Of a DNA stretch of 64,000 bases, positions 2,155 to 36,588 are shown one piece after another; position 1 is the first letter of the stretch, and each line of letters opens with the position of its first letter. The position numbers and the translations under genes are program-made. The notes beneath the pieces were generated by a model, which was not told the origin of the DNA, made no database searches, and was given only the letters and a program-made list of their open reading frames with translations. This DNA is from a virus: positions 80,960 through 144,959 of the IMG/VR virus record IMGVR_UViG_3300017963_000201, one strand, 5' to 3'.

Positions 2155-4140
2155 ATGAAAATCCATTACAGCGCACAACAAAAATTATACTATGCGGAAG
2201 CGACGAAGGAAGAGCGCTTCCCACTAAAAGAAGCGGGGTTCTGGTTCCACGGGCCAGAATACCGTTGCAGCTTCTCTGGGTGCAAATGCTGTGCCATCAA
2301 ACTAGAGTGGGTTTGGTGGACCACCAAACCTGAAATCGCAGCCAGACTCCTGGAAGTCTGTGACGATGACGCAAAATGTGCCCTCACGGGGCACGTCGAG
2401 AGCGTGGAGGCTTCCCGAGCCTCCGACGCTGAGATAGATATTCCCTGCCCCGAAAATCTCGCTTACCGCCCCTTCCAGCGGGCCGGTGTAGCCTACGCAG
2501 CCGAGCGTAGCGCTACAATGATCGCCGACGAAATGGGGCTTGGAAAAACAATACAAGCCCTGGGGATTGCCAACTATAAAAAAGCAAAAAACATCTTAAT
2601 TGTTTGCCCCGCGTCTCTACGATTAAATTGGAAGCGGGAGGCCCAGAAATGGCTCGTAGAGCCACACACGATCCAAGTTGTCACCAAGCCATCGGACGAC
2701 GTGAGCGCTGCTGATATCGTAATCATTAATTATGACCGCTGTAAAGGTCAGCACCTTGAAGCGCTGAAAGCCAGAGAGTGGGATCTTATAGTAGTGGACG
2801 AGGTTCACTATTGCAAAAACCCGAAAGCCCAGCGGACCAAGAATATCCTGGGCTATTGGGATCGCAAAAACCGTACAGCGGTCCCCGGCCTGGTAGACCG
2901 AGCGAAAATTAAACTTTTTCTCACGGGCACCCCGATCACAAACCGCCCCATTGAGCTGCACCCACTGGCCGCAAAACTCGATCTCCGAGAGTTTGGAAAT
3001 TTTATGCGCTTCGCCAAACGCTACTGTGACGCCCACGAGACCAGATACGGATGGGACTTTTCGGGCGCGAGTCATCTAGACGAACTCCAAGCCAAACTTC
3101 GCGGAAGTTTTATGGTTCGCAGGCTAAAGAAAGACGTGCTCAAAGAGCTTCCGGCAAAAGTCAGACAGGTTGTCATTTTGAACCAAAATGGGTGCGCAAA
3201 CGCGGTAAAAGCCGAACAAAAGGCATGGGCGCAAGCCGGGGGAGCGGACTTTGAAGCACTAAAAGCTAACGTGGAGCTTGCCGCTGCCAGTGAAGATCAA
3301 AATGCTTACAGGTCTGCAGTACATGCCCTTAATTCAGCAATCCGGGTCGCTTTTGAAGATATGGCCGAAATTCGACATGAAACAGCAGAAAAGAAAACCC
3401 CAGCAGTGCTTGAACACTGCGATGACATACTTGAAAATGTCAGCAAGCTGGTGATTTTTGCACACCACAAAAAAGTAATTGCAGGGATCAAAGAGCATTA
3501 TGGCGAAAAAGCAGTAGTCGTGGATGGATCAACTCCTAATGATGCCCGGCAAGCAGCTGTAGACGCATTTCAAAACGATCCTAGCATTAAAGTTTTCATC
3601 GGATCGATCAAGGCTGCTGGTGTTGGCCTAACACTGACCGCAGCCTCCCACGTTGTTTTTGCCGAGCTGGATTGGACACCAGCAAACATGACGCAAGCGG
3701 AAGATCGTTGCCACCGGATCGGGCAAACCGATTCCGTCACTGTCCAGCACTTGGTTGTCAATGGCAGCCTTGACGCCAGGATGGCTGAAATCCTCGTGTG
3801 GAAACAGGAAATTATTGAAGCTGCGCTGGATAATCCTGAGAAGGCCATAGAGGTTCCTGAGCCCACCGAACTCCCCAAACCCAAATATCCCAAAGCGACT
3901 GATGAGCAGCGCAAGGCTTGCACCGATGCCCTCCGAATGCTTGCAGGACTGTGTGATGGGGCACTTAAAATAGATGGGCATGGATTCAATAAATGCGATA
4001 GTACAATTGGAAAAAGTTTAGCTTCGCGCTCTATGGATCGTGAGCTAACGGACGGCGAAGTGTTCTTGGCCAAACGAATCCTGCCAAAATACCACAGGCA
4101 GGTCGGTAGCGATCTCATTGAAAAGGTAAAAGCGGCATGA
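2155..4140 (+). CDS. SNF2/SMARCAL1-like DNA-dependent ATPase
   Basis: 661 residues. The N-terminal about 95 residues are a small cysteine- and tryptophan-containing module. The SNF2 helicase core follows: motif I DEMGLGKT (125-132), motif II DEVH (215-218), motif III LTGTP (256-260), motif V GVGLTLT (489-495) and motif VI QAEDRCHRIGQ (514-524). This is the arrangement of the SMARCAL1-like branch, which remodels or anneals DNA rather than unwinding long duplexes; a role at replication forks is inferred. The C-terminal about 90 residues are unassigned. Base composition is clearly GC-richer than neighbouring genes, and the gene has its own sigma54- and sigma70-like promoters, so recent acquisition is likely. 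Its TGA overlaps the next ATG. Confidence 0.93.
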   Translation: MKIHYSAQQKLYYAEATKEERFPLKEAGFWFHGPEYRCSFSGCKCCAIKLEWVWWTTKPEIAARLLEVCDDDAKCALTGHVESVEASRASDAEIDIPCPENLAYRPFQRAGVAYAAERSATMIADEMGLGKTIQALGIANYKKAKNILIVCPASLRLNWKREAQKWLVEPHTIQVVTKPSDDVSAADIVIINYDRCKGQHLEALKAREWDLIVVDEVHYCKNPKAQRTKNILGYWDRKNRTAVPGLVDRAKIKLFLTGTPITNRPIELHPLAAKLDLREFGNFMRFAKRYCDAHETRYGWDFSGASHLDELQAKLRGSFMVRRLKKDVLKELPAKVRQVVILNQNGCANAVKAEQKAWAQAGGADFEALKANVELAAASEDQNAYRSAVHALNSAIRVAFEDMAEIRHETAEKKTPAVLEHCDDILENVSKLVIFAHHKKVIAGIKEHYGEKAVVVDGSTPNDARQAAVDAFQNDPSIKVFIGSIKAAGVGLTLTAASHVVFAELDWTPANMTQAEDRCHRIGQTDSVTVQHLVVNGSLDARMAEILVWKQEIIEAALDNPEKAIEVPEPTELPKPKYPKATDEQRKACTDALRMLAGLCDGALKIDGHGFNKCDSTIGKSLASRSMDRELTDGEVFLAKRILPKYHRQVGSDLIEKVKAA

Positions 4141-6248: not shown

Positions 6249-6680
6249 ATGAAATCTATTACAAGCTTCCGTGGTGAATACGCTTTTCTAAGTAATTTCT
6301 ATCCAGCATCAGTCCCCTTTCGGGGTATCATCTTCCCTACCGCCGAGCATGCTTATCAAGCGCAAAAGTCAAAAAGCCTAGAAGACCAAAAAAGGATAGC
6401 ACAAGTCAAAACTCCCGGAGAAGCTAAAAGACTAGGTAGATTTCTTAATCTTTATTCCGGATGGGATCAGATACGTATCCCCATCATGTTTGCAATTATT
6501 TACCGCAAATTTACTCACAACAAATATTTAGGTAAAAAGTTAGTAGCGACTAACCCAAAGATACTTATTGAAGAGAATACCTGGGGCGATAAATACTGGG
6601 GAAAAGTAAACGGAGATGGGCTTAATCTATTAGGATCACAGCTAATGCAGGTACGTTGGCTTCTCATAGAAAAAGGTTGA
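6249..6680 (+). CDS. NADAR-family (YbiA-like) N-glycosidase
   Basis: 143 residues, the normal length for the YbiA/NADAR family. Family motifs are FRGEYAFLSNFYPA (8-21), PTAEHAYQAQK (about 31-41), ENTWGDKYWGK (about 108-118) and GLNLLGSQLMQVR near the C-terminus. Family members hydrolyse N-glycosidic bonds of ADP-ribose-type substrates, including removal of ADP-ribose from DNA bases and breakdown of riboflavin intermediates. In a phage this could counter DNA ADP-ribosylation defence or serve NAD metabolism (inference). It is the last plus-strand protein gene before the convergent junction. Confidence 0.88.
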   Translation: MKSITSFRGEYAFLSNFYPASVPFRGIIFPTAEHAYQAQKSKSLEDQKRIAQVKTPGEAKRLGRFLNLYSGWDQIRIPIMFAIIYRKFTHNKYLGKKLVATNPKILIEENTWGDKYWGKVNGDGLNLLGSQLMQVRWLLIEKG

Positions 6681-6705
6681 CACACTCAAGTACTATTATT
6701 AATAT
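6677..6705 (+). promoter_or_regulatory. sRNA unit 1 promoter
   Basis: TTGACA (6677-6682), 17-bp spacer, TAATAT (6700-6705). The -35 begins inside the NADAR stop codon region. Predicted start near 6712. Confidence 0.65.
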
Positions 6706-6711
6706 AGGTAC

Positions 6712-6801
6712 TAGAGAGTCGATTCAGCTTGGTATCCTGGTTCGATGTCTAAGTTGGCAGACTCTCTTGCTCCTAAGCTAAATGCTTAGGAGTTTTTATT
6801 T
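6712..6801 (+). ncRNA. candidate small RNA 1 of a four-unit array
   Basis: Predicted transcript of about 88 nt from the promoter at 6677. Its 5' part can form a long-range stem, AGAGAGTC with GACTCTCT, around a 39-nt loop, followed directly by a strong intrinsic terminator. No open frame with a ribosome site is seen. Transcription is inferred from the promoter and terminator. Confidence 0.55.
6770..6801 (+). terminator. sRNA unit 1 intrinsic terminator
   Basis: CTCCTAAGC-TAAAT-GCTTAGGAG, a perfect 9-bp stem followed by TTTTTATTT. The T-tract runs straight into the next unit's TTGACA. Confidence 0.8.
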
Positions 6802-6828
6802 GACAGGATTAGCCTAATACAGTATATT
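6800..6828 (+). promoter_or_regulatory. sRNA unit 2 promoter
   Basis: TTGACA (6800-6805), 17-bp spacer, TATATT (6823-6828). It overlaps the end of the unit 1 terminator. Confidence 0.6.
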
Positions 6829-6834
6829 ACCTTT

Positions 6835-6897
6835 TGGGTGTTAGAAGTGGCCTTGGATTGATGATCGCTCCCGGAATTATCCGGGAGCACTTTTTTA
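6835..6897 (+). ncRNA. candidate small RNA 2
   Basis: About 62 nt: some 32 nt of unpaired-looking leader followed by the terminator hairpin. It has the architecture of a minimal bacterial antisense RNA (5' seed plus terminator). Target unknown. Confidence 0.5.
6867..6897 (+). terminator. sRNA unit 2 intrinsic terminator
   Basis: GCTCCCGGA-ATTA-TCCGGGAGC, a perfect 9-bp stem followed by ACTTTTTT. Confidence 0.8.
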
Positions 6898-6925
6898 TTG
6901 ACACGTATTACTATTTTGATAAGTT
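6898..6925 (+). promoter_or_regulatory. sRNA unit 3 promoter
   Basis: TTGACA (6898-6903), 16-bp spacer, TAAGTT (6920-6925). The -10 is weaker than in the other units. Confidence 0.5.
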
Positions 6926-6931
6926 AGCTAA

Positions 6932-6989
6932 CGAACGTGATCTCCGGAATAACCCCCTTCAATTACCGCTACGATTGAAGGGGGGTTTT
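6932..6989 (+). ncRNA. candidate small RNA 3
   Basis: About 57 nt: roughly 21 nt of leader, then an 11-bp terminator hairpin that makes up most of the RNA. Confidence 0.45.
6953..6989 (+). terminator. sRNA unit 3 intrinsic terminator
   Basis: CCCCCTTCAAT (6953-6963) pairs perfectly with ATTGAAGGGGG (6974-6984), followed by G and TTTT. Confidence 0.8.
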
Positions 6990-6991
6990 CC

Positions 6992-7020
6992 TTGACACTG
7001 TGAATTAATTAAGATATAAG
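6992..7020 (+). promoter_or_regulatory. sRNA unit 4 promoter
   Basis: TTGACA (6992-6997), 17-bp spacer, TATAAG (7015-7020). A near-consensus sigma70 promoter two bases after the unit 3 T-tract. Confidence 0.65.
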
Positions 7021-7026
7021 AAAAAT

Positions 7027-7082
7027 ACTGCGTATCCGTCTGGCCCCTCAGACTTTGGCAAGAGTTTGGGGGGTACTTTTTT
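7027..7082 (+). ncRNA. candidate small RNA 4
   Basis: About 56 nt: a leader of about 17 nt plus terminator hairpin. It ends inside the last codon of the convergent minus-strand gene, so the 3' end is antisense to that mRNA's tail. Confidence 0.5.
7044..7082 (+). terminator. sRNA unit 4 intrinsic terminator
   Basis: CCCCTCAGACTT pairs with AAGAGTTTGGGGGG over about 11-12 positions with some G-U pairs, followed by TACTTTTTT. It closes the plus-strand side of the convergent junction. Confidence 0.65.
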
Positions 7083-7953
7083 AATCACTTCTAGCAGAAG
7101 AAAAGAATCTGGACCAGAATCCTGCAGGTAGTGCGGAGTAGATTCTCCCGGCCCCCATATAGCCCCCAGGGCCAACCTGATGCAAAACAGTACCCTTGGT
7201 CCTATATTGTTGTTTGAAGCCCACAGAAGCCTTTGTAAAGCGGTTCAGGATGGCGCTAATCATCCCAGACAACTTTCCGTAGTGATCAATGACTAGACTA
7301 TTCCCACCCAAAGCATAATTGAAATCAGTATCGATAGAAAAGATTCCCTGAGATTCCAAAGCTGCTATAGTAGCAGCATCGATTAAAATTGTACCGTATT
7401 GAGCAAATGGGTAGTTGTCTACGGTCAAACTCGTATAAGGTGGAATTGCATTTATGAATTGAACACCGCGATCTAGGTAAAAGATTAAATGTTTATCATC
7501 ATATCCATAGAAAAGCTGAATGTCGGGGTCGGTAGAAGCCCGATCCATGTTTTCGATATAATCACTGATTGACTTTCTTGCCTTATCTACTTGGACTCTG
7601 AGTTGAGCCGCGTATGCATAATACTTGGTAGAAACGGATTTTACAAAAACGTTATTACTGACAGTGACGTTTTCTAATATGCATCTCGTAGCCAGTAAAT
7701 ACTCTTCGTTATAGGTAGAAGCATCAAAGGAATATTGATATATCCCTGTACCCGCGTGAGTAATACTAGTCCCGCCAGATGCCGTAAATGATCCTGAATC
7801 TTCCGATGAATCATCTGATATGTTAATCAAATTAAAAGAACTAGTGCCTGCTACATCTGTTAGGGAGTTTGTCAACGTATCCCGAACATAGAAAGTAATG
7901 GGCTCGGTTTGGTTAGCCAACACTACATGAAAATCGGTAAATGATTGGCTCAT
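7081..7953 (-). CDS. probable virion (neck/tail) structural protein
   Basis: 290 residues. The N-terminal about 100 residues are serine/threonine-rich beta sequence with an Ig-like feel (ITHAGTGIYQYSFDAS). The middle and C-terminus are mixed, with a glycine-rich end (GPGGYMGAGR). It is the last gene of the minus-strand morphogenesis operon and overlaps the upstream gene by four bases. A head-tail joining or tail role is inferred from position; no family recognised. Confidence 0.6.
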   Translation of the reverse strand: MSQSFTDFHVVLANQTEPITFYVRDTLTNSLTDVAGTSSFNLINISDDSSEDSGSFTASGGTSITHAGTGIYQYSFDASTYNEEYLLATRCILENVTVSNNVFVKSVSTKYYAYAAQLRVQVDKARKSISDYIENMDRASTDPDIQLFYGYDDKHLIFYLDRGVQFINAIPPYTSLTVDNYPFAQYGTILIDAATIAALESQGIFSIDTDFNYALGGNSLVIDHYGKLSGMISAILNRFTKASVGFKQQYRTKGTVLHQVGPGGYMGAGRIYSALPAGFWSRFFSSARSD

Positions 7954-32437: not shown

Positions 32438-34087
32438 CTAATCGATATCCAAGTCTTTTGGAAGCATATTCCTAATCTTCTGTTCAACGAACTCAGACAT
32501 TTCTATACCAACCTCTTCCAAGGCTTCATACTGCTCATTGGTTAGCAAATCTTTAGCTACATCTTTTGCTGATATCTCTATGCCGGACAACTCAGAAAGT
32601 TCTTCGGCAATTTCTTCAGCCCTTAATATTCTTTCCTCTGATCCACCCCAATAACTTGGGTATCCGAGAAGAAGGGACCACAAAGATCCTATAGCATCTT
32701 CTTCATCCTCTGGTATTTCCTCACCCCCAGCATACCTAATAACCTCTCTAGCACTTTTATCCCATATAATTTCTGTTATGGGGATATTCTCAAAACTACC
32801 ATAGGCATTCATAAGATTTTGGTAATTTTCCATCATACTACCAATATCTACGTCACCCCCAGTGTAACCCCACCACCCATCTTCACTATAGCCAAAGTCA
32901 ATAAATTCTACACCCTCCCCACCATCCCACTTGAGTTGAATACCGCCATGCGTTAAATAGTCCACATCACCGTAGTTTACCCATTTATCTTTAATGGATG
33001 CTAATACCTCACCTATAGTTTTGGATCTAGGTTTGTCTTCGTATACGTCTTTATCAAACATCTCTTCTTGTTGTGCTCTAAGTCTTCTCATTGTTCTTTT
33101 TAGACAGGCTTTACTATCCAAAAAATCATCATTATCATCATACCCTAAAAAAATCCCGCACACTATACCACCAACTTCATTGGCTACTTCTTGGGCTTCC
33201 TCCTCTGTTTCATACCATTCTTCAGACATAGGGGAATTAGACCATTCTTCCCCAGTCCACACAGTGTTGCTGTCATCAGGATCTTCCACTACATATTTAA
33301 TAATCTCACCGGCAATGTGCCTCCTAGCATTAAAGTCTCGTATAGTTCCTCCTGATCCCTGACTATCTTTAACAACATCACCATTTTTTAAAAGCTGAAT
33401 AACATATTCATCCAAGCGGTCCCCATACTTATCTAGCATTTGTTGGAAGCGACCTTCAGGATCATTGTCTCCTCGTATGTTTTGCACCACTTGATCATTG
33501 AGGGTATCAATAACTTCTATTGTATAATTAGCAGCAGTTTTCCTACTCTCCATAGGGAAGCCCCCCAAGTAAGGATTACCAAAGTAGGCATCAGGGGACT
33601 GTGCAAGCCTACGACCTTTAATCTTATTCACGTTGGGATGCTTTACCATGTCTTTTACCTCTTTTTTGTACTTATCAGAGATTGGTTTTTTAGGTTGGTT
33701 TGGCTTCATAGGTAAACCAGAAGCTACAAGCCAAGTATTAATGTCACGAACAAGACGAGCATTTGTGATATGGTGCATCAGTTTGTCATAATCATCTTCG
33801 TAAATGCACCCCTGCTTATAAGCTATCTGCTCAAACTCATCCTGGAGATTTTCCAGTTCACGGTTTTGTACCTTGATACTTTCTGCAGCCAAACCCATGG
33901 TAAATGCATTTTGCTCCGTCTCACCGAGCTTAGAAAGCAGCCCAACATACCAAGACTCTTCTAGCTCGTTGTCTACAATATGAGCTAAAGCAATCTCCAA
34001 GGCTTGATCCACTGTGAGGTTCAAAACTTTGTCAAGATCTTCTGGGACAACAATTTCCGTAGAAGTGTCTTGGGCAGTGATACGCAT
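32438..34087 (-). CDS. large modular acidic protein, AQ-type N-terminus
   Basis: 549 residues starting MRITAQDTSTEI. Internal basic-AQ motifs GRRLAQSPD (about 159-167) and RRLRAQQEE (about 338-346) divide it into three parts. The first part is helical. The second has alternating strands (NYTIEVIDTLNDQVVQNI). The third is tryptophan/glycine-rich (WDGGEGVEFIDFGYSEDGWW) with a helical end. Function unknown; likely related to the other AQ proteins. Confidence 0.55.
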   Translation of the reverse strand: MRITAQDTSTEIVVPEDLDKVLNLTVDQALEIALAHIVDNELEESWYVGLLSKLGETEQNAFTMGLAAESIKVQNRELENLQDEFEQIAYKQGCIYEDDYDKLMHHITNARLVRDINTWLVASGLPMKPNQPKKPISDKYKKEVKDMVKHPNVNKIKGRRLAQSPDAYFGNPYLGGFPMESRKTAANYTIEVIDTLNDQVVQNIRGDNDPEGRFQQMLDKYGDRLDEYVIQLLKNGDVVKDSQGSGGTIRDFNARRHIAGEIIKYVVEDPDDSNTVWTGEEWSNSPMSEEWYETEEEAQEVANEVGGIVCGIFLGYDDNDDFLDSKACLKRTMRRLRAQQEEMFDKDVYEDKPRSKTIGEVLASIKDKWVNYGDVDYLTHGGIQLKWDGGEGVEFIDFGYSEDGWWGYTGGDVDIGSMMENYQNLMNAYGSFENIPITEIIWDKSAREVIRYAGGEEIPEDEEDAIGSLWSLLLGYPSYWGGSEERILRAEEIAEELSELSGIEISAKDVAKDLLTNEQYEALEEVGIEMSEFVEQKIRNMLPKDLDID

Positions 34088-34089
34088 AG

Positions 34090-34587
34090 CTACTCCTTTT
34101 CACTATCCCCAATAAAAGTCATAGGGCCAAAGTCTGCAATTGCCGCTTCGATAGGATCAACTTCTTCCTTTTTAGTTTTCTTCGATTTCACTGCTTTCTT
34201 CTTTGCTGCAGCAGCTTTCTTTTCTTTAGTCTTTGTCTTTTTCTTGGGTTTGACTTTTTCTACCACCTTGGGTTTTATCTCTTCTTCCTCTTCTAGGGGC
34301 TCTTCGTCAAAATCGATAACAATAGGCTCGTCGATCTTTTTAGCCTTCGGTAGCTTTCGAATTCTAGGGTGAGCCTTTAGCTCATGCTTACCGATAACTT
34401 TCTCAGAGTCATGAAGTACAGTGAGATTACCCGTATTAACTAAATAATTAAAAACTGGATCTTCCTTAATCCACTTACGAGAGCATATGCCATCCACATC
34501 GTAAGATTGTCCAGGGTTAAGAATAATGCTTCCCTTTTCAAGTTGCAAAGGTAACGAGCCGCCTGTGCCATTTCTAACTTTAAACAT
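34090..34587 (-). CDS. hypothetical protein with lysine-rich tail
   Basis: 165 residues. The N-terminal 75 residues form a small beta domain (GSIILNPGQSYDVDGI). Residues about 85-145 are an acidic then lysine/alanine-rich low-complexity stretch. Lies just downstream of the terminase; role unknown. Confidence 0.55.
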   Translation of the reverse strand: MFKVRNGTGGSLPLQLEKGSIILNPGQSYDVDGICSRKWIKEDPVFNYLVNTGNLTVLHDSEKVIGKHELKAHPRIRKLPKAKKIDEPIVIDFDEEPLEEEEEIKPKVVEKVKPKKKTKTKEKKAAAAKKKAVKSKKTKKEEVDPIEAAIADFGPMTFIGDSEKE

Positions 34588-34668
34588 AAACTTTCTCCTT
34601 TAGCTTTTCTTGGTCTCTGCCTCTGATTGAATAATAAGGTAAAAAGATAAAGACAATTTAAGTATTGT

Positions 34669-36588
34669 CTACACGAACCTCTTTAGTCGAATAACTCTAA
34701 GGGAGGGCCTTGGGTTTGCTTTTCGGATCATACTAACTTTATGTCTGTCCTGTATAGCTTTGTTAGTAAAGACCCTCTCGGGAGTCTTTAGTAATCTATG
34801 AACCCCAATATAACATTGGATCATATCGTTCGATCCATCACTTCTGTGGTCTACCTTGACTCCATTATCTTGCAAACCTCTAAGCTCTCTTAGAGCTAAA
34901 GAACAAGGCATATTTCTGTGATAATAGGGATCTAGTGCGGGATGTTCTTTAGCCGGAAAACTTAATTTATTATTACGCATACTTTCTAAAAACTTAATAT
35001 GATCATCCCGATCTATATCTTTACCCATGGCCAAGATTCCTACATTTCTTAGCCTATCAATTTGTTCCATTGAATTCCAACGGTCATAGGATACATACTT
35101 AATAGTTAACTTCTTATGTAGCTCCAATATCAAATCTGTCATCGCAGGAAAATAAACTTCTCTTGGCTTTAGCTTTTGTTTATTCCCCTTGGGGATCGGC
35201 TTCAAAGTCACAGCACCGTCTATGATAACTTTATCTTCTTCGAGGTGTCCTATACATAAACAAAAGCTATCCTTCTTTTTTCCTGGATCACAATGTATAG
35301 CATACTCAGCTAAGTTTTTATATTTTACGTTTTTTATTTCTAGCCCAATATAACTAAAGATAACATTCCCAACCTTCATATCGAAGTACTTCTCACCATA
35401 ATCAAAAATAGAAAATCTAGTATTGTCTGTACAGGCTTCTATAATTCTCGTATCTCGAATAAAAGGATTCTCCGCACCAGGGGGGTTAGCACCGTAATCC
35501 CTTTCGGCACCCAAGGGATCATCCTCAAATTCGTCTGCCAGGTCCTCTTGAGTAATCTCAGGATTTGCTTCCCAGGTAGCTTTCCTAAAAGCAAACATCT
35601 TGTGCTGTCTTTGCGCTTGCTCTAACAATTGCATAATCTTATCGTCTTCAAACATCGGACTCGATATACTAATCATCCTGGCATCGGGTAAATTATAAAT
35701 ACCAAGCTCCCGTGCCCTTCGTACAGCAGAGCTAATCGTTCTAAGGGATCTCTTGAGTACCCTGTAGACTTCCTGAGCGCTTTTCTTACTGTCTCCCGTA
35801 TCAAATCTTGCCAGCTCGTCAATGATCGCAATCAGTCGTGTTTTACCGGCCAGGGAAGCTGAGTTAGAATGCAAAGCCTTCAAAGCTAGATTTTTATACT
35901 TGAAGTGGATTTCTTTGTCGGTTTCTTTATAGAGCTTACCTGTCTTGTACTTAGGGTGCGTCTTTTCTAAAGTCTGTAGCTTTTCTTTGAGATCCTGAAA
36001 CCAGGGGCTCTCTTCGTAAAAAGCCCTAAAGTGCCCCCAGACCGTCTCAGAAGCCTGTTGGGCACTCGTAGCGACAAAGGCTATATCCAAGGTCTGCCTT
36101 TTGATAACTCGTAGCCTAGACTGAAGATCTGGGGTACAGAGCGCGTCGTGGACTAGCCCAGCAGATAAACAACCTATGGTCACACCCTTGCCCGAGCGCA
36201 TCCCCTCGCATCCAACGAATTCATTGTAGAAGCTCAGATCGTCTACTATATCTGATTTCTTTAGCCCACAATTTGGACAAACCTCATACTCAAATAATAT
36301 CTGATCTCTTCTGGGAACATCATTTATAGTACGGATTCTCTGTACGTCGTTACACATGGGGCAGAGTAATTCTAAGAAGTCCCTAATTACTTCGTACTGA
36401 ACCGGCCAAAGCTCAGGACCATTAAGGTATTCTGGAGATTCTATAAAATGGATTACGTTGGGTGCGCGTTTGAGGGTGACAAGATCCGTAGTTACTAAGT
36501 TTGACGATTGAGTAATTTTGCCCTCAATCATGTCATCTAGATCTGCAAATAAATTATCTCTAGCTACATACTCCATATGACTTAACAT
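34669..36588 (-). CDS. terminase large subunit
   Basis: 639 residues. The ATPase domain has a Walker A-like GCEGMRSGKGVTIG (about 126-139) and Walker B IAIIDELARFD (about 250-260), with a zinc-ribbon insertion CPMC/CPNC before it. The nuclease domain has HCDPGKKKDSF (about 424-434) and later acidic residues. It packages DNA into proheads through the portal and cuts the concatemer. It is the first gene of the morphogenesis block. An alternative ATG four codons in is possible. Ends TAG. Confidence 0.88.
   Translation of the reverse strand: MLSHMEYVARDNLFADLDDMIEGKITQSSNLVTTDLVTLKRAPNVIHFIESPEYLNGPELWPVQYEVIRDFLELLCPMCNDVQRIRTINDVPRRDQILFEYEVCPNCGLKKSDIVDDLSFYNEFVGCEGMRSGKGVTIGCLSAGLVHDALCTPDLQSRLRVIKRQTLDIAFVATSAQQASETVWGHFRAFYEESPWFQDLKEKLQTLEKTHPKYKTGKLYKETDKEIHFKYKNLALKALHSNSASLAGKTRLIAIIDELARFDTGDSKKSAQEVYRVLKRSLRTISSAVRRARELGIYNLPDARMISISSPMFEDDKIMQLLEQAQRQHKMFAFRKATWEANPEITQEDLADEFEDDPLGAERDYGANPPGAENPFIRDTRIIEACTDNTRFSIFDYGEKYFDMKVGNVIFSYIGLEIKNVKYKNLAEYAIHCDPGKKKDSFCLCIGHLEEDKVIIDGAVTLKPIPKGNKQKLKPREVYFPAMTDLILELHKKLTIKYVSYDRWNSMEQIDRLRNVGILAMGKDIDRDDHIKFLESMRNNKLSFPAKEHPALDPYYHRNMPCSLALRELRGLQDNGVKVDHRSDGSNDMIQCYIGVHRLLKTPERVFTNKAIQDRHKVSMIRKANPRPSLRVIRLKRFV

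Follow-up and report, generated by a model that had tools for sequence, protein, structure and literature searches.

A Tandem Array of Four Predicted Small-RNA Units at a Convergent Gene Junction of a Large Tailed Phage

What does a phage gain from a 404 nt segment in which four units, each running from promoter to terminator, follow one another with hardly a base between them? The segment (positions 6677–7080, hereafter the array) lies between two blocks of protein genes in the window, which is the whole stretch of DNA analysed, the last 64 kb of an IMG/VR virus contig of 144,959 bases. The record contains portal, capsid, protease and terminase genes and can thus be attributed to a large tailed phage; its terminase has distant relatives among the terminases of large myoviruses.

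Anatomy and Setting of the Array

Four consecutive units make up the array, each with a sigma-70 promoter, a short leader and a hairpin followed by a T-tract, the TTGACA boxes starting at positions 6677, 6800, 6898 and 6992. The units and the two neighbouring genes are the following.

6249–6680, + strand: NADAR-domain protein (Pfam PF08719, E 9.7e-26), upstream neighbour and final gene of the + strand block; context, outside the array
6677–6705, + strand: promoter 1, TTGACA-17-TAATAT, its −35 overlapping the NADAR stop codon (read directly; unchanged in the sister contig L001)
6712–6797, + strand: RNA1, predicted, about 86 nt, with a 5′ domain made of an 8-bp outer stem, a small internal loop and a 13-bp inner hairpin with the 7-nt loop CUGGUUC, then the terminator (fold z −7.3 for the whole RNA)
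6769–6793, + strand: terminator 1, hairpin then TTTTTATTT (hairpin and T-tract)
6800–6828, + strand: promoter 2, TTGACA-17-TATATT (read directly)
6835–6896, + strand: RNA2, predicted, about 62 nt, unstructured leader and terminator (fold)
6867–6888, + strand: terminator 2, hairpin then ACTTTTTT (hairpin and T-tract)
6898–6925, + strand: promoter 3, TTGACA-16-TAAGTT, with the extended −10 TGA and the weakest −10 of the four (3/6) (read directly and cassette detector)
6932–6991, + strand: RNA3, predicted, about 60 nt, unstructured leader of about 21 nt and terminator (fold)
6953–6984, + strand: terminator 3, 12-bp hairpin then GTTTTCC, the weakest T-tract (hairpin and T-tract)
6992–7020, + strand: promoter 4, TTGACA-17-TATAAG (read directly and cassette detector)
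7027–7080, + strand: RNA4, predicted, about 54 nt, 16-nt leader and terminator (fold)
7043–7074, + strand: terminator 4, 14-bp hairpin then ACTTTTTT (hairpin and T-tract)
7081–7953, − strand: putative head-tail connector protein (PHROG 17327, E 4e-4), downstream neighbour and final gene of the convergent structural block; context, outside the array

The four tandem promoter, hairpin and T-run units described in an initial sequence-only reading were borne out, as boxes, spacers and hairpins could all be read directly. The four terminator hairpins have 9–14 pairs and no mismatch. Each following −35 begins at the preceding T-tract or within about 2 nt of it, in agreement with the abutment noted in that reading, and every unit directly precedes the next one except the last, which faces the convergent gene. 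The good quality then ascribed to the individual elements holds for the overall layout but not for the −10 of unit 3 nor for the T-tract of terminator 3, and the RNA lengths, first given as 88, 62, 57 and 56 nt, changed slightly for all but RNA2.

The connector protein has relatives at 55–98% identity. For the DNA of the array region itself, cultured phages and plasmids gave at most short matches, of which the best falls within the NADAR gene. A replication origin at this site finds no support, since the genes converge here and the cumulative GC skew merely tracks the coding strand.

Chance Expectation and Relatedness of the Units

The genome has 69 copies of TTGACA, approximately the chance expectation. 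A cassette detector requiring a promoter score of at least 9 and a hairpin with a T-rich tail at most 130 nt away returned five isolated cassettes and a single run of four, the array, from the whole 145-kb record. The same detector found 15 isolated cassettes in a background of 717 kb of strands fetched by protein homology only, and 47 in 1.79 Mb of strands of simulated order-1 Markov sequence, in neither case with two or more forming a run. With one run of four in 145 kb and none in either control, a chance origin of the array is excluded. No significant sequence similarity was found among the four units. The array is thus not a local repeat, and an origin of the units by duplication is unsupported.

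Conservation in a Sister Contig

Only one other copy of the array was found, in contig L001 (IMGVR 3300018080_000399). A comparison of unit number between relatives had been proposed with the initial reading, and L001 carries the same four units. The two arrays differ by five changes in 404 nt (a loop swap in terminator 1 being counted as one), compared with 12 synonymous changes at 92 synonymous sites (13%) in the NADAR gene and 9.7% synonymous change in the connector gene; the difference between the array and the NADAR synonymous sites is significant (Fisher test, 2e-6). Taken separately and set against the same sites, the promoters (0 changes in 115 positions, Fisher 4e-5) and the leaders (2 in 150, Fisher 2e-4) are both conserved. 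Outside the array, the two contigs differ at many positions up to its very edges (6635/6638 on one side and 7111–7150 on the other).

Inside the array, the loop of terminator 1 differs between the window and L001 (TAAAT versus ATTTTA) and the stem is kept except for the loss of a terminal G-T pair at its base, which is the kind of change that would be expected of a functional stem. In terminator 4, the L001 change A7063G turns an A-U pair into G-U and preserves pairing. A change that counts against constraint on structure is G6718T in L001, by which the outer stem of RNA1 loses a pair. As judged from this single pair of sequences, the array appears to be kept by selection. The divergence between the window and L001 is a mosaic (pS 0.018–0.13 among genes), so that a recent recombination patch matching the array may mimic constraint.

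No array was present at or near the site in the diverged relatives of the connector gene (L002–L008) or at other NADAR loci, and exact searches of the viral contigs with the cores of RNA1 and RNA2 returned L001 only. In L001, a gene-sized insert of about 420 bp, absent from the window, lies between the array and the connector gene (from reverse-complement position 7535 on); its boundary is marked by a repeat of some 25 bp matching the connector gene's 3′ end.

The Same Layout in Other Contigs

A scan of the viral collection for the succession T-tract, promoter, 45–75 nt, T-tract and −35 gave 55 loci, as compared to one locus with scrambled promoter hexamers; the 55 loci are not a count of sRNA arrays because many of them belong to other repeated promoter systems or are promoters in tandem that lack strong hairpins. 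Once loci without hairpins or with repeated promoters of another kind were left out, two further arrays and several pairs were retained. In L080, a weak unit lies upstream of four good ones, between genes on the array's own strand. L047 contains three units, antisense, between two structural-region genes of one strand. Pairs of units, with hairpins required, occur in L039, L063, L073 and L145. All of these have the same layout with different sequences, in unrelated contigs. No relatives of the L080 array were found with which the selection test could be repeated. Part of the L145 stretch is homologous to the region upstream of the antirepressor Ant in the Mannheimia phage KP137437, a hint that regulatory loci can harbour RNAs of this type.

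Cellular genomes, scanned with a stricter pattern, yielded 12 loci. In one of them, on a Clostridia MAG contig near rplQ (L196:3054–3270), two tandem homologous units of a structured small RNA were observed, the TTGACA/TATAAT promoter of the second directly following the T-tract of the first; there was no Rfam match. L148 has comparable joints of terminator and promoter between its ordinary genes, and one unit there is of sRNA size.

A different organization was seen in several AT-rich viral contigs (L025, L026, L053, L056, L064, L104, L128, L134, L149 and L161). Their repeated promoter units consist, in order, of TTGACA-17-TATNAT, a small palindrome (ATCAAATGAG...TCATTTGA), CTCTTTGAAAAA, which is boxA-like, TGAATTTTTTAG and the next TTGACA. 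They look like an antitermination-type repeated element.

Predicted RNAs and Proposed Function

The fold of RNA1 is strong also when its 5′ domain is taken alone (z −4.9), whereas the leaders of RNA2, RNA3 and RNA4 are unstructured, giving these three the shape of a seed followed by a terminator. The seed-plus-terminator description given to all four units in the initial reading, with minimal Hfq-type sRNAs as the model, fits RNA2–4 in shape, with the reserve that the T-tract of RNA3 is poor, and does not apply to RNA1 with its two-part 5′ hairpin. No target stood out among the 162 phage translation starts, the duplex energies being no better than those of shuffled leaders. Self-target energies of RNA1 were borderline (2/30 and 1/30 versus shuffled).

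We propose, with a probability of roughly 0.6, that the array encodes four independently transcribed phage small RNAs. The anatomy, the conservation in L001 and the independent arrays of the same layout all support this promoter–sRNA–terminator interpretation, which was that of the sequence-only reading. In this model, each unit would use its own near-consensus sigma-70 promoter, its leader and its intrinsic terminator to produce a separate noncoding RNA of 54–86 nt. Since near-consensus sigma-70 promoters are otherwise rare in the genome, transcription would probably be carried out by the host RNA polymerase, early and at a high level. The four RNAs would probably act in trans, although the layout by itself is no proof of such action. 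In RNA2–4, the unstructured leaders would be the base-pairing seeds and the terminator would lend them stability; the structured hairpin of RNA1 could make it a decoy or an RNA of the antisense type. Possible targets are RNAs of the host or of rival elements, or RNA-binding proteins, and the RNAs may have a role as regulator, sponge or anti-defence RNA, as put forward in the initial reading. Independent promoters and terminators would give each RNA a separate dosage and make the units interchangeable.

Alternative Explanations

The location of the array exactly at a convergent junction (6680 + / 7081 −) could also mean that it is a transcription boundary. The four terminators, which are strong, would stop + strand read-through from the NADAR operon, the four opposing promoters would fire into late − strand transcription, and the RNAs would be by-products. 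No − strand terminator was found in the window between 5000 and 8081; something else must therefore stop the late transcripts, and for this reason the explanation keeps some weight. However, the leaders are as conserved as the rest of the array, and this favours an RNA function over a mere boundary. Another convergent junction of the genome (at about 46.84 kb) is without such a block, and plain bidirectional terminators would be a simpler solution. The arrays of L080 and L047 are away from convergent junctions, the first lying between genes of its own strand and the second antisense between same-strand genes, so that the layout is not tied to such junctions. The transcription-insulating role that had been offered as an alternative in the initial reading is weakened by leader conservation, the array-free junction elsewhere in the genome and these two positions, and we consider it unlikely.

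Promoter and terminator could also be what is left of modular cassettes whose genes are absent, either as remnants or as docking sites for gene shuffling. PeSL elements, reportedly described by Arbiol et al. in 2010 and Comeau et al. in 2014, are promoter/stem-loop elements located between early genes of T4-type phages, and as in the array they place an early promoter and a stem-loop terminator next to each other. Unlike PeSLs, which are mutually similar and separated by protein genes, the array units are dissimilar, hold only a short RNA between promoter and terminator, and do not serve as the promoter of a following protein gene. The insert just after the array in L001 indicates that the junction is prone to recombination, and the joints of L148 provide an example of terminator-promoter pairs between ordinary genes. 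Yet shuffling elements should resemble each other, as the four units do not, remnants should drift at the synonymous rate, which the promoters and leaders do not, and no diverged relative was found with genes lodged between the units. Cassettes emptied of their genes are on these grounds an improbable origin.

The RNAs might instead be mimics directed against host defence, either RNA anti-CRISPRs that imitate CRISPR repeats or a decoy of a tRNA anticodon loop. RNA anti-CRISPRs (Racrs) are promoter-driven single repeats, short phage RNAs usually found just 3′ of a promoter (PMC10651486). The array RNAs resemble them in being small and directly 3′ of a promoter, and differ in coming as four units and in the absence of detected CRISPR-repeat similarity, as judged from the families of Rfam. 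At gathering and permissive thresholds, no Rfam family scored above gathering and the only matches were weak ones (E 0.85–5) to unrelated families. CRISPR repeat families are included in Rfam, and none appeared among the matches at E up to 5. The 7-nt loop of RNA1 has a U at the position of U33 but lacks the purine expected at position 37, and no tRNA or tmRNA was detected by ARAGORN. Four unrelated sequences would moreover require four different mimicked repeats, and mimicry appears still less probable than the emptied cassettes.

A coincidental, non-functional clustering of motifs, or a small protein encoded across 6834–6995, is hardly credible, since the 53-codon frame that is open across units 2–3 has no homologue and encloses a promoter and a terminator, and since the run statistics, the scrambled-motif control and the conservation in L001 all stand against it. 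For the part of this frame at 6861–6995, no homologue was found in phages and the ATG is replaced by GTG in L001; the short frame of unit 1 is shifted there. A protein frame kept across 6861–6995 with the promoters lost, the pattern named beforehand as contrary to an RNA array, is not what L001 shows, its promoters being unchanged. Reading frames thus examined, the array is noncoding, with no plausible protein frame.

Comparison with Known Small-RNA Systems

The preferred interpretation, four independently transcribed small RNAs, can be compared with several known arrangements. LhrC of Listeria is a tandem multicopy bacterial sRNA. Like LhrC and the L196 repeats, the array would line up several sRNA genes, every one equipped with a promoter and a terminator of its own; in those two cases the genes are copies of one RNA, whereas the four array RNAs are unrelated in sequence. 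Antisense control of the c4/ant type in prophages likewise involves small terminated RNAs in a row, but the array has neither an antirepressor gene nor a sequence match to that system. Lambda OOP, DicF, AsxR and svsR are single phage or prophage sRNA genes with their own promoter and terminator (PMC12197685; svsR, PMC12803456). The array RNAs share with them their small size and noncoding nature and, with several, the intrinsic terminator at the end. No sequence relation to these four was found. They are single genes or are processed from mRNA, mostly in temperate enterobacterial phages, whereas the array is made of four unrelated units in direct tandem in a large phage.

Phage sRNA genes are already known, and the tandem array of four unrelated units would be a new arrangement. 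The open-licence papers searched contained neither an account of unrelated minimal phage RNAs arrayed in tandem nor a named system of such design, and the initial reading had likewise known of no such system. Phage small RNAs have been known mostly singly and mostly from temperate enterobacterial phages, and the array, with its counterparts in unrelated contigs, points to a means of deploying them in sets of which little has been described. With its signature, a T-tract abutting a −35 and repeated, phage noncoding-RNA loci could be found without any sequence family, and the array is a defined deletion target for probing the role of such RNAs. More speculatively, and with no great likelihood, several phage lineages may carry an undescribed class of genes, in which minimal RNAs, each driven independently and interchangeable with the others, are set in tandem arrays that turn over from lineage to lineage. 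Early in infection these RNAs would jointly hit targets in the host or its defences, and the arrays would be the equivalent, in RNA, of anti-defence islands.

Other Features of the Phage Genome

Outside the window, the genome encodes a full-length homologue of elongation factor G (L012:13859–15889, G000 33659–35692) with all EF-G domains by Pfam; its matches in the phage collection reach 47% identity. The GC content of 0.54 in this stretch, against about 0.39 for the genome, indicates that it was probably acquired from a cell. At L011:3431–5944 (G000, also outside the window) there is a family A DNA polymerase that carries a uracil-DNA-glycosylase domain fused at its N terminus. Within the window, a gene for a SNF2-type helicase (2155–4140) lies in a region with a GC content of 0.47 (2.5-kb bin), above the rest of the genome, and is possibly a recent acquisition.
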